Shown here in pieces: positions 419-9,801 of a DNA stretch of 33,744 bases (within the stretch, counting starts at the first letter, position 1; each line of letters begins with the position of its first letter). This DNA comes from Clostridiales bacterium GWE2_32_10 (GTDB lineage: Bacteria > Bacillota > Clostridia > Lachnospirales > UBA12420), in the NCBI GenBank assembly GCA_001797255.1, contig MGOW01000083.1, forward strand, positions 1 to 33,744, in the 5' to 3' direction. The translations under genes were made by a program, and so were the position numbers. The notes below the pieces were generated by a model. The model worked only from the letters and a program-made list of their open reading frames with translations. It ran no database searches and was not told the DNA's origin.

Positions 419-477
419 TTACGACATGAAAAAATAAAAATAAAAACAAGAACACGAGAAACTGAGGGATGAAAAAT

Positions 478-2181
478 ATGAATAAAAATAACGTAAACGG
501 ATTCACGTTACTGGAGCTACTAGCAGTACTAGTAGTAATGGCAGCACTAGCAGTAATAGCGGTACCGGTATTTGTAAGTAAAGGCAATGAAGCTAGACTA
601 CAGGCACATAAAGCTAATATACGAGAGATAAACAATGCAATACAAAGGTATGAGTGGAGTGGGGAAGCTATAGCAACTGATACATATTACAATATATTAG
701 ATGACAACAATGCACTAGTAACATCAAAATACCTACATGCAGAAGTATCATCACCCTACGATGCAACAAGCACATTAGATGTAGTAGGTGGAGGAACTGA
801 TGATGCAAGTAACTTTACGTACTTTATAGGAAAGGATGCAAATGGGAGAACGGAGGTAAGGCTGATAAGACTAGGGTCAGGTGAGGTGCCGACTAGAGCA
901 GGAGCATTGACTAATGATGTGTTTAATGCATATGGAACAACAGCAACAACGATACATGAAATACTAATAGATGGAACGATAAAGAAATCAGATGGAGGAG
1001 TTGTGGGGGATACAGACCCACCAAGCATAGTATTAGCTAATCTAGGGGGAAACGTAACTAGTGAAATAGTAACAGCAACGATAACAGATGTAAGTGCGAT
1101 AAGCAGTAAAAAGTGGGCAAGTGGAACACAAAATGTGGCATATTTTGCAACTGGGGGAATGGATATAACAGATACGACTTTTGGGGTGGTAGCGAATGGG
1201 ATATATACGGTGTATGCGAAGGATGCAGCGGGGAATGAGGCGGTGCAGACGATAGATATAGGGAATATAGTAACAATAGCAGAAGGGCAGTATATAAAAT
1301 TTGGTAGTTATTTAGGGCAGCCGATAGTATGGAGGATAATACATAAAGTAACGGCACAGGATTTAATAAATGAACCTAGTAGTGGATTGCATGAAGGGGA
1401 TTTATACCTATTGTCGGATAGAATAATAACAATGAAACCATATGATGCAAAAGACCCAGCAGCACCAAGTACGGATGGGCAAAGAGCTGTATATGGAAGT
1501 AACTATTGGGGAAATAGTAACATAAGAGAGTGGTTAAACAGTACAGATGCAACAGTAGCGTATAGTACACAAAAACCAGATACAAGTCATGTATGGTCAT
1601 CGGTAAACTCATATGAAACAGAAGCAGGGTTTCTGACAAACTTTACAGCAAACGAAAAAAATCAAATAATACAAGTAACACATAAGAGTATAGTGGATAA
1701 TAACTCAGATGGACATGATGGAGGAACGGTAGAACACGGAAATGTAGAAACAGGAATAGATGAATCAGTAGCAGCAGGAACCAATTATAGTACAGCATAC
1801 TATAAAAACACAACAGATAAGATATTTTTGGCAAGTTTAGGAGAATTGGCAACATATGTAGATGGGGTGCTAAATCACCCAAGTACATCAACAAAATATC
1901 AGATAGCATATACAACACAGCAAGCGAGAACCCAAAGTACTTATGCAAGTGATCCAGCAAATGATACGACAGCATGGTATTATTGGACTAGAGATGCTTA
2001 TACGTTTAATTCGTCTGGTGTTCATGGCATTAATGGACTTCTCACGCTCGGTCACCCTGAAGCTTTTAGTGGAAATTTTGGGGTGCGTCCAGCAACGTTT
2101 ATAAAATCATTAACTCTAACCCTAGACAACGCAAGCGGAGCTGATGCATTCAATGCATACACAATAACAAGCTTTAACTAA
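478..2181 (+). CDS. Prepilin-like protein with Ig-like and C-terminal DUF6273 (C-type-lectin-like) domains; candidate DGR target
   Basis: The start at 478 is preferred because the GAGGG site at 464-468 is 9 bases away; the ATG at 469 directly abuts it. Residues 7-30 form a class III prepilin signal: NG, then FTLLELLAVLVVMAALAVIA, with cleavage expected after Gly8 and Glu at mature position 5. A pilin-type helix follows, then an Ig-like domain (about 180-265) beginning TDPPSIVL. From about 270 comes a DUF6273 domain (IKFGSYLGQPIVWRII; YGSNYWGNSNIREWLNS; YYWTRDAY; ending NFGVRPATFI), a fold related to C-type-lectin/FGE-like variable proteins. At 567 residues it is far longer than an ordinary pilin. 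Most of the gene favours A-ending codons, but about 1979-2090 switches to Y-ending ones (see findings). The protein probably sits on a pilus or pseudopilus tip as a binding protein; that is inference. No pilus assembly genes are in the window. Confidence 0.8.
   Translation: MNKNNVNGFTLLELLAVLVVMAALAVIAVPVFVSKGNEARLQAHKANIREINNAIQRYEWSGEAIATDTYYNILDDNNALVTSKYLHAEVSSPYDATSTLDVVGGGTDDASNFTYFIGKDANGRTEVRLIRLGSGEVPTRAGALTNDVFNAYGTTATTIHEILIDGTIKKSDGGVVGDTDPPSIVLANLGGNVTSEIVTATITDVSAISSKKWASGTQNVAYFATGGMDITDTTFGVVANGIYTVYAKDAAGNEAVQTIDIGNIVTIAEGQYIKFGSYLGQPIVWRIIHKVTAQDLINEPSSGLHEGDLYLLSDRIITMKPYDAKDPAAPSTDGQRAVYGSNYWGNSNIREWLNSTDATVAYSTQKPDTSHVWSSVNSYETEAGFLTNFTANEKNQIIQVTHKSIVDNNSDGHDGGTVEHGNVETGIDESVAAGTNYSTAYYKNTTDKIFLASLGELATYVDGVLNHPSTSTKYQIAYTTQQARTQSTYASDPANDTTAWYYWTRDAYTFNSSGVHGINGLLTLGHPEAFSGNFGVRPATFIKSLTLTLDNASGADAFNAYTITSFN
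1979..2095 (+). other. Candidate hypervariable region (DGR VR-like segment) of the prepilin/DUF6273 gene
   Basis: From the codon for Thr in YYWTRD to the one before GVRP, I count 32 codons, of which 24 end in T or C. The gene upstream is dominated by A-ending codons. A run of NNY codons just before a conserved GC-rich end (GGGGTGCGTCC) is what adenine-directed mutagenesis of AAY codons produces in variable regions of diversity-generating retroelements. No template repeat or reverse transcriptase is visible in the window, so they would have to lie elsewhere. Confidence 0.45.
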
Positions 2182-4326: not shown

Positions 4327-7300
4327 ATGAAAAATTTTAGAAGAATTGTAGCAAGTTTTTTGATTGTATCATTTGCAATAACACAAGTTTTACCAGCATC
4401 AGCAGCTGTGGATGCTGAAAACAAAGGAAATGTATCAAAAGCACAGATTGAAAAGCAGTTAAAGGAAAAAATTAATGAAAACAAAGAAAATGCTAAAGCA
4501 AAGAAATCCGTTAAATCAAAGTTTGATATTAATAGGTTTTCACCAAGTGAAAGAGAAATACTTCGTAGTAAAGGAATAAATAGCACTGACCAGAATGCTG
4601 AAAGTGAACTTAAGCTTCCTAGTATAAAAAGTGGACTTATAGGTACTAAGTCTGAAAAGGATACAGTACCAGGCAAAATTATTGTAAAGTATAAGGATGG
4701 AGTTAGTAGTGAACAAATAAAAACAATGACAACACAAATCGCAGCAAAAAAAGAGAAATCTTTTAGTAAATTAGGAATAGATGTGTTAAAAGTAAAAGCT
4801 ACAGAAACTAAGAATAAGATTAAAGAACTAATTGAAAATGAAAATGTAGAGTATGCCGAGCCAGTTTATGTGGTAAGAGCATTATCTATAGAAAGTCAAA
4901 ATGACCCAGCATATACAAGCTCAAGGCAATGGGGTCTTACAGCTATAAATCCTACAGATCTATGGGCGGATGTTTCAGAAGCAGATAGGGAGAATGTCAC
5001 ATTAGCTGTAATAGATACTGGGGTTGATATGGATCACCCTGATTTAGAAGATAACATAGTATCAGGATATGATTTTATAAACGATGATAACAATCCTGAT
5101 GATGATTATGGACATGGTACGCACGTTGCAGGTATTGCAGCTGGTATATCGGATAATGGTACAGGAATTGCAGGTGTGGCAAGTGGAATAAAAATAATGC
5201 CGATTAAAGCTTTAGATAGTGACGGAGCTGGAACTACAGAAACAATAGTAGCAGGGATTGACTATGCAGTAGGACATAATGTAGATGTAATCAATATGAG
5301 CTTAGGTAGTGATGCAGATAGTCATGCATTAGAAGATGCAGTAAATGATGCAGTAAATGCAGGAGTTATAGTTGTTGCAGCAGCAGGAAATGAATATGGA
5401 TCAGATGTATGCTATCCTGCGGCGTATGAAGGAGTTATTGGAGTAGGTGCTGCTGATTATATTGACGGACATTTTGAAGAAGCTGATTTTTCAAATGTAG
5501 GGCCTGAAGTGGATGTTGTTGCACCAGGTGTAGACATATACAGTACTGTACCTATTGAATTAGATAATTATAATACAAATGTTGGAGACTTAAATGAAGA
5601 TGGATATGCATTGTTGAGTGGTACATCTATGGCAACTCCTTTTGTTTCTGGTATGGCTGCACTTTTGCAGGCAAAAGCAAAAGCTAATGATAACAATTTA
5701 AATAGTGATGAAGTATGCACGATTTTAAAAGATACTGCTGTTGATATAGGAGATGTAGGTATAGACAATGAAACAGGTGCAGGTATCATAAATGGTGATG
5801 ATGAACAAGAATTAGGAAGTCTTGAATTTCATACGATAGACATAGAAGCATCAGATGAATATTTTGATGTAGGTGACACTATAGGTTTTGATATTAATCT
5901 TGGGGCTAATAGAAATACTTTAGATACAGAGACTGATATAGATACTCCTCTAAAATTAATGATGAGGAAATTTTCATATGATTATTTTAGTTTTGAGTGG
6001 ATATCTGAGCCAGAAGAAGTTATGGATGTAAACATTGCAAATGGTAATGCAAGTATCAATTATCAACCAATAAATTCGGGGCTATATGCTTTCTATGTAC
6101 AAGGGAATGACCAATATATGATGTCTAATACTTCGTTTATAGGTGTATATAAAGATACTAATAGTGAAATATCAGGTACTGTTTCATTACCGCAACATCA
6201 AGTTGCACCTAATGGAGGTTTAAATATTGATGTAATTGCATGGAATGGTGAAAATGAATTTAATGAGAATATTATTATTCCAGAAGGTGAAAATTCTGTG
6301 GATTATGCTATTGGGGTTGACGATCCGTTAGAAACAGACGTATATGAATATTACATAGAATATGATATAAAAACACAAGGAGTTAATGATTATGTGTTAC
6401 ATGGTTTTTATGGGGAAGATAACACAGAGGCTATCGAAGGTAATGCCTCTATAGTAGAGGTTACAGAGTTTGATAATGCTGAAAATATAGATATGGTACT
6501 TATACCTGGAGTCGCTATTTCAGGTACAATAGCTGTACCATATGATTGTGATGCAGATGGGGTTTATATAAGAGCACTCAATGCAGATACAAGTTATTAT
6601 GAACTAAAATATGTAGATTTAGATCAAGATACACAAAATGTTAGTTACAATATAGTAGTTCCAAAAACTTTAAAAAATTGGGTACCAACATTTGCTAATA
6701 TTAATAGTGATAATAATACTCCGAATGATAGTGAAGATGATTATAATGATTCGTACTTGGCTTCTCTGCAAATTAATGATGAAGAATTGACTTATTTGAT
6801 AAGTTATGATTTTTTAGGTGGAGAACCTGATGGTTTTTTGAATCAAGGGTATTATACAACAAATGAAACAGTACCAAATTATAATATTGCAAACAAAGTT
6901 AATATTGCGCAAGATACTCTTTCAAATATTAATTTTGAGATTTTAACCGCAAATACAATTAGAGGAAATTTGTCACTACCAGTGGGCGTTTTAGCTGAAG
7001 AAGAAATGGATATATATGTAGATGCTATTGCAGAAGACGGGACTGTATACACAGACAATATAAGCATAGAGGAAGGTCATAATGCAGAAGCTTATAAACT
7101 AAATGTAACACCTGGTGAAAACTATGTAGTAAGATATGAAATACCGGATATGGAATATTGGGGTGGTGACTATAATGAGGAATATTCATATATAGGATAC
7201 TATGCAGGTAATGAAAGCGTTTCACAAGAGCAATATGCTTCTCAACTTGATGTAGAAAATGCTGACATTTCAAATATAAATTTTCATATCATTAAAAATG

Positions 7301-9801
7301 CAACTATTATTGGGGAGATAAGTTTACCTGATGGAGTTGATGTACAGGATGTTGATTTAGAAGGTAGCATATTTGCTAATAGTGGTGATTTTTACTCTAA
7401 TGCCTATTATACAATTGGAAGTGGGGAAACATCAGCTGAGTTTACACTTAAAGTACCACCAACGGAGGAAGGTTATTATTTAGCATATACTTTAGATGAG
7501 TTTAGCCCTGATTTAGATATAGTAGGTCTAGGATATTATGCGGATAGTAGTAGCGTAACAGAATTTGATTCGGCAGTTTCTATTGATGTTAGTTCAGGTA
7601 ATGTTTCAGGGATTAATTTTAAAATGCTTACAATACCCGAACTTGAAAATGATGTAAGTAATACCAAGAATAATGCATATGAACTTGGGTTGAAAACAGT
7701 ATACAATGAAAGTCTTGATTATGGAGCTGATATAGATTATTATAAATTTACGACAGATGAAGCTGGAATTTATATAATCAAATCTACAGGCGAAACTGAT
7801 GTTTTTTGTAACCTATATAAAGTAGTGGGAGATGACTTAAACTTAATTGCTACTAATGATGATGCAAGTGAAACAAATTATAATTTTAGAATTGAAGAAG
7901 AATTGCAAGCGGATACAACCTACTATTTAAAAGTTACAGGATATGATTGTACAACAATTGGTGATTATGGTATAGTTGTAACAGATGAGCCTGAAAGCTT
8001 AGTGTCTATATCGGGAGATATTACTTCTAATGAGGCTATATTAGATTCAGAATTTTCATTTGAAGTTCCTGAAAATGAGGCAGGTTATAAAATATTTTAT
8101 TCTATACCAGTTGGATATAATGAAAATTATTCTAGTATAGGGTATTATGATGAGGGTGGTACAGTAAAAGCAGAAAATCAAGCAACACTGGTTATAGAAG
8201 AAAAAGATGATATAATATTGACATTGCTTAATAATGTAAAACCAGAGGCGACAGAAATTGGTGTATCAGGTACAGCGAAAGTTGGAAATACATTAACAGG
8301 TAGCTATATATATTATGATGAAGATGGTGACGTAGAGGGTACTACAACCTTTAAGTGGCTATCATCAAGCACTGTAGACGGTACTTATACAGCTATATCT
8401 GGGGCTAATGCAGCTACATATGAGTTAAAATCAAGTAATAAAGACAAATACATAAAATTTCAAGTAACACCAATAGCAGAAAATGGCATAAAATATGGAG
8501 TAGCCACTAGAAGTGAAGCTTTGGGACCAATAGAAGCTAGTAGTAATTCTTCAAGTGGAGGAAGCGGTGGTGGTGGAGGTGGAAGCAGTAGCGGTGGATC
8601 AACATCTACTACAACACCTAATCAGGAAACAAAAACTACAGAAAGTGGTAAAACTACTGTAAATACAGGAAGTGACGGAAAGGAAGTAGCCAATATAGTT
8701 GTAGACAGTAGTAAGTTAAGTTATGATATTACTTCAGATAAAGTTGATAAAGTAACAATTAATGCTACTACAACGAGTGCTGTAGACAATATATCGGTGT
8801 CTATACCTACCAATGTTTTAGACGATGCATCTAAAGCAACTAAACCAATATTAATAGAAAGTAATAATGTATCTCTCGAAATAGAACCAGGAACTATAAA
8901 CACGAACGATGTTACAGGAGATGTAGTTTTTGGGGTATCAGAATTATCACTTAAAGATGTAACAGGTGAGATATCAAATACACCTAGTGAATCTGATTTG
9001 GTATTTGCTGTGTTTGACTTTGATCTTAATGTAGGTGGCAAAAATGTAACAGCGTTTGATAAACCAATTACGATTACAGTTAAATTTGATATTACAAAAG
9101 TAAAAGATTTAGATAAAGTAGCAGTATTTTATTATAATGAAGTAGATAATAAGTGGGAATATGTAGGTGGTAAAGTAAATAAAAATGGTACTATTACATT
9201 TACAGTAGAACATTTTTCTGAATATGGTGTAATAGAAAACAACAAAACATTTGATGATATACAAACACATTGGGCAAAAAAAGATATAGAGTTTTTGGCA
9301 GCAAGACAAATAGTAAATGGCATAGATGACAAAAATTTTGCACCCAATAAAAATGTCACAAGAGCACAGTTTGTAACTATGATTGCAAAAGCACTTAGGC
9401 TAAAGAATAAAGAGAACACTAATATATTTACAGATATTGATAAAAATTCATATTACAAAGACGCAGTAAATGCAGCATATAGTGCTGGTATAGTAAGTGG
9501 AGTAGGAGCAACTTGGTTTTCACCAGATGACCTGATTACAAGAGAACAGATGGCGTGTATTATCGTTAGGGCATATGCATATAAGACAGGAGACAACATG
9601 GATGAAATAATGACTACTATGCAACTAAGATATACTGATGAAGGAAAAGTAAGTAGCTGGGCAAGAAGAAATGTAATACTTGCAAATGTTTTCGAATTAA
9701 TGAACGGTAACCTAAATAAAACATTTGCTCCACAGAACAACTCAACAAGAGCAGAAAGTGCAGCAGTAATAAAGAGATTGATAGTCAAGCTAGATTTATA
9801 A
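4327..9801 (+). CDS. Giant S8 subtilisin-like protease with SLH cell-wall anchor
   Basis: At 1824 residues, this is a modular exported protease. Residues 1-27 are a signal peptide ending ASA. A propeptide-like region (about 117-175, VPGKIIVKYKDGV) comes before the S8 catalytic domain, with Asp230 (VIDTGVD), His263 (GHGTHVAG), Asn355 (AAAGNE) and Ser434 (SGTSMATP) all intact. Next come about five modules opening with ISGTVSLP-like motifs (near 613, 730, 877, 994 and 1227). A PPC-type domain (about 1105-1219) sits between the last two. An Ig-like domain, a Gly/Ser linker (about 1405-1432) and a beta-rich domain follow. Three SLH motifs (1641 to the end) bind secondary cell-wall polymer. AGGAGG lies 7 bases before the ATG. 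It probably processes surface proteins or degrades external protein; the substrate is unknown. Confidence 0.95.
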   Translation: MKNFRRIVASFLIVSFAITQVLPASAAVDAENKGNVSKAQIEKQLKEKINENKENAKAKKSVKSKFDINRFSPSEREILRSKGINSTDQNAESELKLPSIKSGLIGTKSEKDTVPGKIIVKYKDGVSSEQIKTMTTQIAAKKEKSFSKLGIDVLKVKATETKNKIKELIENENVEYAEPVYVVRALSIESQNDPAYTSSRQWGLTAINPTDLWADVSEADRENVTLAVIDTGVDMDHPDLEDNIVSGYDFINDDNNPDDDYGHGTHVAGIAAGISDNGTGIAGVASGIKIMPIKALDSDGAGTTETIVAGIDYAVGHNVDVINMSLGSDADSHALEDAVNDAVNAGVIVVAAAGNEYGSDVCYPAAYEGVIGVGAADYIDGHFEEADFSNVGPEVDVVAPGVDIYSTVPIELDNYNTNVGDLNEDGYALLSGTSMATPFVSGMAALLQAKAKANDNNLNSDEVCTILKDTAVDIGDVGIDNETGAGIINGDDEQELGSLEFHTIDIEASDEYFDVGDTIGFDINLGANRNTLDTETDIDTPLKLMMRKFSYDYFSFEWISEPEEVMDVNIANGNASINYQPINSGLYAFYVQGNDQYMMSNTSFIGVYKDTNSEISGTVSLPQHQVAPNGGLNIDVIAWNGENEFNENIIIPEGENSVDYAIGVDDPLETDVYEYYIEYDIKTQGVNDYVLHGFYGEDNTEAIEGNASIVEVTEFDNAENIDMVLIPGVAISGTIAVPYDCDADGVYIRALNADTSYYELKYVDLDQDTQNVSYNIVVPKTLKNWVPTFANINSDNNTPNDSEDDYNDSYLASLQINDEELTYLISYDFLGGEPDGFLNQGYYTTNETVPNYNIANKVNIAQDTLSNINFEILTANTIRGNLSLPVGVLAEEEMDIYVDAIAEDGTVYTDNISIEEGHNAEAYKLNVTPGENYVVRYEIPDMEYWGGDYNEEYSYIGYYAGNESVSQEQYASQLDVENADISNINFHIIKNATIIGEISLPDGVDVQDVDLEGSIFANSGDFYSNAYYTIGSGETSAEFTLKVPPTEEGYYLAYTLDEFSPDLDIVGLGYYADSSSVTEFDSAVSIDVSSGNVSGINFKMLTIPELENDVSNTKNNAYELGLKTVYNESLDYGADIDYYKFTTDEAGIYIIKSTGETDVFCNLYKVVGDDLNLIATNDDASETNYNFRIEEELQADTTYYLKVTGYDCTTIGDYGIVVTDEPESLVSISGDITSNEAILDSEFSFEVPENEAGYKIFYSIPVGYNENYSSIGYYDEGGTVKAENQATLVIEEKDDIILTLLNNVKPEATEIGVSGTAKVGNTLTGSYIYYDEDGDVEGTTTFKWLSSSTVDGTYTAISGANAATYELKSSNKDKYIKFQVTPIAENGIKYGVATRSEALGPIEASSNSSSGGSGGGGGGSSSGGSTSTTTPNQETKTTESGKTTVNTGSDGKEVANIVVDSSKLSYDITSDKVDKVTINATTTSAVDNISVSIPTNVLDDASKATKPILIESNNVSLEIEPGTINTNDVTGDVVFGVSELSLKDVTGEISNTPSESDLVFAVFDFDLNVGGKNVTAFDKPITITVKFDITKVKDLDKVAVFYYNEVDNKWEYVGGKVNKNGTITFTVEHFSEYGVIENNKTFDDIQTHWAKKDIEFLAARQIVNGIDDKNFAPNKNVTRAQFVTMIAKALRLKNKENTNIFTDIDKNSYYKDAVNAAYSAGIVSGVGATWFSPDDLITREQMACIIVRAYAYKTGDNMDEIMTTMQLRYTDEGKVSSWARRNVILANVFELMNGNLNKTFAPQNNSTRAESAAVIKRLIVKLDL

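Follow-up and report, generated by a model that had tools for sequence, protein, structure and literature searches.

The window, as we call the whole 33,744-nucleotide stretch of DNA analyzed here, carries on its plus strand an open reading frame of 570 amino acids (469..2181), which encodes a prepilin-DUF6273 protein of the type targeted by diversity-generating retroelements (DGRs) and which has homologs with variable regions (VRs) in the genus. Profile searches matched the protein to N_methyl (PF07963, residues 7–31, E 1.4e-5) and to DUF6273 (PF19789, residues 313–546, E 2.6e-19), the same two parts that a preliminary description of this DNA had read in it. The N-terminus (487..561, plus strand) is that of a class III prepilin with the motif GFTLLE, and it scored 23.0 bits against TIGR02532, above the cut-off of 16.3. 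With this signal, and with a Peptidase_A24 prepilin peptidase (PF01478) encoded in the window's genome, the protein is type IV pilin-like. The DUF6273 domain (1405..2106, plus strand), located in a search of the window's own genome, is of a kind that in phages bears DGR VRs at its C-terminus (PMC10743442, PMC11792537). At the corresponding end of the window's domain, codon analysis and positional alignment with the VRs and template repeat (TR) of sister species delimit a tract of foreign codon usage that is homologous to VRs (WYYWTRDAYT...GVRPA; 1975..2094, plus strand). This tract contains a hypervariable core (2005..2079) and ends in a GC-rich conserved tail, GGGGTGCGTCCAGCA (2080..2094), which encodes GVRPA. 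The tail was described beforehand as conserved in protein, and GVRPA is indeed identical in 17 of 18 paralogs of the genus. Since it lies at the IMH place of the sister TR and VR (GGGGTTCGCCCGGC), we infer that the tail has the role of an IMH.

The codon-usage patch that first drew attention to this tract was confirmed to the last codon: the 32 codons before GVRP (1984–2079) end 20 times in T and 4 times each in C, A and G. Twenty-four of 32 codons therefore end in T or C, whereas in the rest of the gene no run of 32 codons exceeds 15 such endings when scanned in 4-codon steps, or 16 in single-codon steps. Over a 39-codon tract, 27 codons end in T or C, compared with 16.7 expected under the codon usage of the rest of the gene. 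When the same amino acids were recoded with that usage, none of 20,000 simulated draws reached the observed count. The best-scoring tract of the codon analysis was 1975–2067. When the other genes in the window set the expected codon usage, the same patch is only mildly unusual (p ~0.04), so it is real relative to its own gene, and it is the body of the gene, with its A and G endings, that is the odd part relative to the genome. Free third positions in the gene body are 67% A, 20% G and 10% T; in neighboring genes they are about 50% A and 35% T. A T/C-ending patch was found in all 19 VRs of the genus, the window's included, with 19–25 of 32 codons against means of 8.7–12.3 in the gene bodies. 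Its presence in 18 of 18 aligned genus paralogs makes the patch a signature of the family.

Homologs of the domain occurred as 17 matching stretches in one other genome of the genus (G001) and as 5 in another (G002); at three loci, G001 matched contigs from Clostridiales bacterium UBA12072. Among these paralogs, the last 25 residues before GVRPA vary strongly around the fixed columns S, R, V, G, A and G, and the flanks of this core are conserved, with up to 28 of 30 residues of the window's upstream flank held in common. The window's core shares 2–7 of its 25 residues with each of the 18 aligned paralogs, while identity over the rest of the domain is 42–75%. The window also departs from two of the fixed columns: the R of 18/18 paralogs is H in the window, and the G of 17/18 is L. 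Both columns are fixed in the phage TRs that we compared as well.

The sister species G001 encodes a complete DGR. Its contig C38 carries, in order, an accessory gene, a TR, a reverse transcriptase (RT) gene and a prepilin-DUF6273 target. The accessory protein (locus L059, 2970–3650, minus strand) consists of MutS domain I fused to an Avd-like domain and matched PF01624, bAvd, NF033474 and the PHROG family “Avd protein of DGR.” The RT has the motifs IGNMTSQ and YVDD, and its gene overlaps the start of the target gene. The TR reads SYAPNSYNVRNVNTDGTVNNNNAYNGNNGVRPA, with AAC codons, and the VR differs from it at 16 of 28 adenines and at 1 of 56 other bases; thus, C38 combines an RT and a TR with a VR whose differences are limited to adenines. 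Targets elsewhere gave the same picture when compared with the G001 TR, with changes at 12/28 adenines and 0/56 other bases for the C15 target, 19/28 and 4/56 for the C11 target, and 16/28 and 2/56 for one target in G002. Two further RTs of G001 were set aside as DGR enzymes, the one on contig C30 being Drt2 and the one on contig C5 reading QGGIISP without the DGR motif. Low-complexity matches in G001 to an adenine-tolerant pattern were likewise rejected, since a reversed control pattern yielded an equal number.

A second type of DGR is found on contig C33 of G002 (L063, positions 39000–48000 of the contig), with a target at 5793–7355 and an RT at 4433–5464 of that locus, both on the minus strand. 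Its target is also a prepilin, and its VR differs from the TR at 21 of 28 adenines and at none of 83 other bases (p 5e-17). The C-terminus of this target is FGE-like by motif, with no Pfam match there. One in-frame stop breaks the RT frame, which may reflect recent inactivation or a sequence error. Other targets are preceded by truncated remnants of the accessory gene and the RT, on contigs C17 and C11 of G002 and C26, C39 and C40 of G001, which suggests that whole cassettes were copied and then underwent deletion or decay. Internally deleted accessory-RT cassettes were seen 5′ of prepilin targets at L064 (3676–4009), L076 (7120–7212), L123, L124 and L125.

The position of the VR within DUF6273 extends beyond the genus. 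Over 97% of its length, the window's DUF6273 domain shares 31.5% identity with phage nd4, which has a tentaclin published as a DGR target (PMC10743442). In the targets of Faecalibacterium prophages, the VR likewise lies at the C-terminal end of DUF6273 (PMC11792537). In nd4 and in 10 IMG/VR contigs, each with a TR of its own, this upstream TR differs from the VR in the homologous domain at 9–17 adenines and 0–5 other bases; these pairs place the VR at the same position of DUF6273 in phages and in the clostridial genus. Two scans of viral sequences with the window's own domain as query gave no match; scanning with a phage homolog as query succeeded. AlphaFold2 yielded a mean pLDDT of 27 from a 4-sequence alignment and a moderate model from an 18-sequence alignment (pTM 0.69, mean pLDDT 60, with low values in the VR). 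The only good PDB match of the model was the DUF6273-like part of the IgA peptidase 9qa6, so the C-type-lectin likeness of DUF6273 is taken from PMC10743442 and not from the model. In 9qa6, residues 13–263 of chain A, an N-terminal part of the Thomasclavelia ramosa IgA peptidase, are related to the window's DUF6273 (E 2.2e-28), and the related part includes the GVRPA end.

Within the window's own genome (1,874,891 bases in 104 contigs, 92% complete), the preliminary description had proposed a search for a near copy of the segment differing mainly at adenines and for a DGR-type RT, and had counted the absence of both against its reading; neither turned up in the genome as assembled. The RVT_1 profile (PF00078) had no match in the assembly at E≤1. 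Two weak matches to the sister DGR RT proved to be out-of-frame prepilin starts, and were rejected because the RT gene overlaps the start of the target in the sister cassette. A blastn search of the assembly recovered no near copy of the VR, a 60-base adenine-tolerant pattern allowing ≤3 other mismatches found the VR itself only, and the sister TR region as query found nothing above noise. Searches of the assembly for an accessory protein (Avd, HRDC or MSL) gave a single weak match, to an 887-amino-acid MutS-like frame (E 0.008). The same genome does hold a second VR-like tract (C101, 10420–10545), in which 36 of 42 codons end in T or C; it forms the T/C-rich end of a prepilin-FGE-like gene that is frameshifted (L116, 3807–5550), and the assembly contains no TR for it. 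A third gene of this kind, prepilin-FGE-like as well, is truncated by the end of contig C10.

The window's VR aligns without gaps with the G001 TR, and it aligns position by position with the VRs of G001 and G002, which makes it a DGR target by homology. In base changes relative to the sister TR, 17/28 adenines and 27/56 other bases differ, with no significant bias toward adenines (p 0.2), a comparison made with a relative's template in place of the window's own. At the columns where the template has AAY, 10 of 11 window codons are NNY, little above the overall rate of T and C endings in the tract. As the assembly of the window's genome has neither TR nor RT, the derivation of this VR is not directly demonstrable; either it was written from an unfound template with T-ending codons, or loss of the writer left it to drift. 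The original proposal of a DGR variable region is thus supported as a statement of descent, given the exact VR position in sister-species and phage targets and the second prepilin DGR of the genus. It is not supported as a statement that a DGR serves the VR in its own genome, in whose assembly RT, accessory gene and TR are missing and in which the changes relative to the sister TR are not limited to adenines.

We consider that the segment is the VR of a DGR target by descent and is now most likely orphaned in the window's genome, a reading to which we assign a probability of roughly three in four. That the patch could instead be ordinary variation in codon usage at the end of a conserved domain, with no link to DGRs, is very improbable. 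The mild departure of the tract from its neighbors' usage would fit such variation, but the simulations with the gene's own usage do not, and the same tract is marked in every aligned paralog and serves as the VR in relatives whose TR/VR pairs are proven; these sister-species pairs largely refute the ordinary-variation reading. Exchange of a cassette with another DUF6273 gene, by recombination or gene conversion and not by reverse transcription, could account for the sharp boundary in codon usage and would have ample partners in the large paralog families of the genus. Yet its donor copy is absent from the genome's own assembly, it leaves unexplained why the tract in relatives differs from the TR at adenines, and the paralogs all differ mutually in the same columns; we regard such an exchange as improbable.

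An unlikely though credible alternative is that a live DGR still serves this VR from an RT-TR cassette that the assembly missed. The incompleteness and fragmentation of the assembly leave room for it, prepilin genes lie at the ends of contigs (the window's gene begins 469 bases into contig C83, and a prepilin-FGE-like gene is cut at the end of C10), and the cassette is present in the sister species. Against this, the assembly holds not even a fragment of an RT or accessory gene and no TR, the changes in the VR are not template-like, and a frameshift disrupts the gene with the second VR-like tract. The missing machinery and this broken gene lead us to favor loss of the cassette over non-assembly. 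With neither enzyme nor template in its own assembly, the VR patch in the window probably represents a target that is frozen or orphaned.

A target with this history would be a secreted prepilin-type protein presenting a hypervariable hairpin through its C-terminal DUF6273 domain. In the ancestor, as in the sister species now, an error-prone DGR RT together with the MutS-I/Avd fusion accessory would copy the adenine-rich TR, and the copy, with its adenines randomized, would replace roughly the 3′-terminal 100 bp of the target domain. Such writing would leave a sharp tract of codon usage unlike that of the gene body. In the window's genome, RT, accessory gene and TR would since have disappeared, and the VR would have changed at positions that a template holds fixed. 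The family seems to have spread as target genes or entire cassettes were copied and the RT part was then deleted. Once processed by the prepilin peptidase of its own genome, the window's protein would take its place on a pilus-like structure or pseudopilus and expose the DUF6273 hairpin as a putative binding face; both this display and the binding of a ligand are predictions from the domain content. More tentatively, and as a possibility that we hold at somewhat less than even odds, the genus may keep a large, dispersed repertoire of prepilin-anchored receptors written from one RT/TR with the MutS-I/Avd fusion accessory (17 homologous stretches in one species), parts of which individual lineages freeze by losing RT and TR; the window's gene would then be one such frozen clone.

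DGRs are commonly recorded beside their own RT, and large surveys state that remote targets get missed (PMC8144416). Treponema denticola already provides examples of remote targets and of targets that have outlived their RT and TR (PMC4891356), and DUF6273 targets are known in phages. The window's protein resembles the tentaclins of phages nd4 and nd12 (PMC10743442) and the Faecalibacterium prophage targets (PMC11792537) in having DUF6273 with the VR at the C-terminus. In contrast to these particle proteins with Ig domains or tail-fiber parts, it is a cellular protein that starts with a prepilin sequence, in a genome with no detected RT or TR. As in the DGR of T. denticola, one RT/TR core is accompanied by several dispersed target genes; some T. 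denticola strains that have lost RT and TR still retain targets, and some VRs show excess mutations (PMC4891356). The targets there are lipoproteins, up to 7 per genome (PMC4891356), whereas those of the genus studied here are of prepilin type, with 17 homologous stretches in G001. Variable C-type-lectin-like domains have been tied to pilus-type proteins before: passages of PMC6199706 and PMC10743442 cite a Bacteroides ovatus pilin tip with a DGR-type C-type lectin domain, and a passage of PMC6642488 cites “putative pilin structures” with DUF1566. Those cases involve another type of pilus and another domain, whereas the window's protein joins a class III prepilin signal to DUF6273. In the open full-text literature, a scope outside which key subscription papers lie, we found no paper combining “diversity-generating retroelement” with “prepilin.” Here, a VR was recognized by its codon endings alone, in a gene whose genome assembly yielded no RT, and was confirmed through sister species. 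In this genus, both a receptor repertoire that is written by a retroelement and displayed on pilins and the fate of its targets once the writer has gone can be put to the test.

Two other features of the window were observed. Positions 2–418 hold a partial PD-(D/E)XK-type open reading frame with A/G-ending codon usage like that of the target gene, and two further copies of this frame lie near another prepilin on contig C10 of the same genome (L118). At about 2795–2957, an imperfect inverted repeat read by eye (aactattcag.ccccccc ... ggggggg.ctgaatagtt) borders a stretch that resembles a small palindromic or mobile element.
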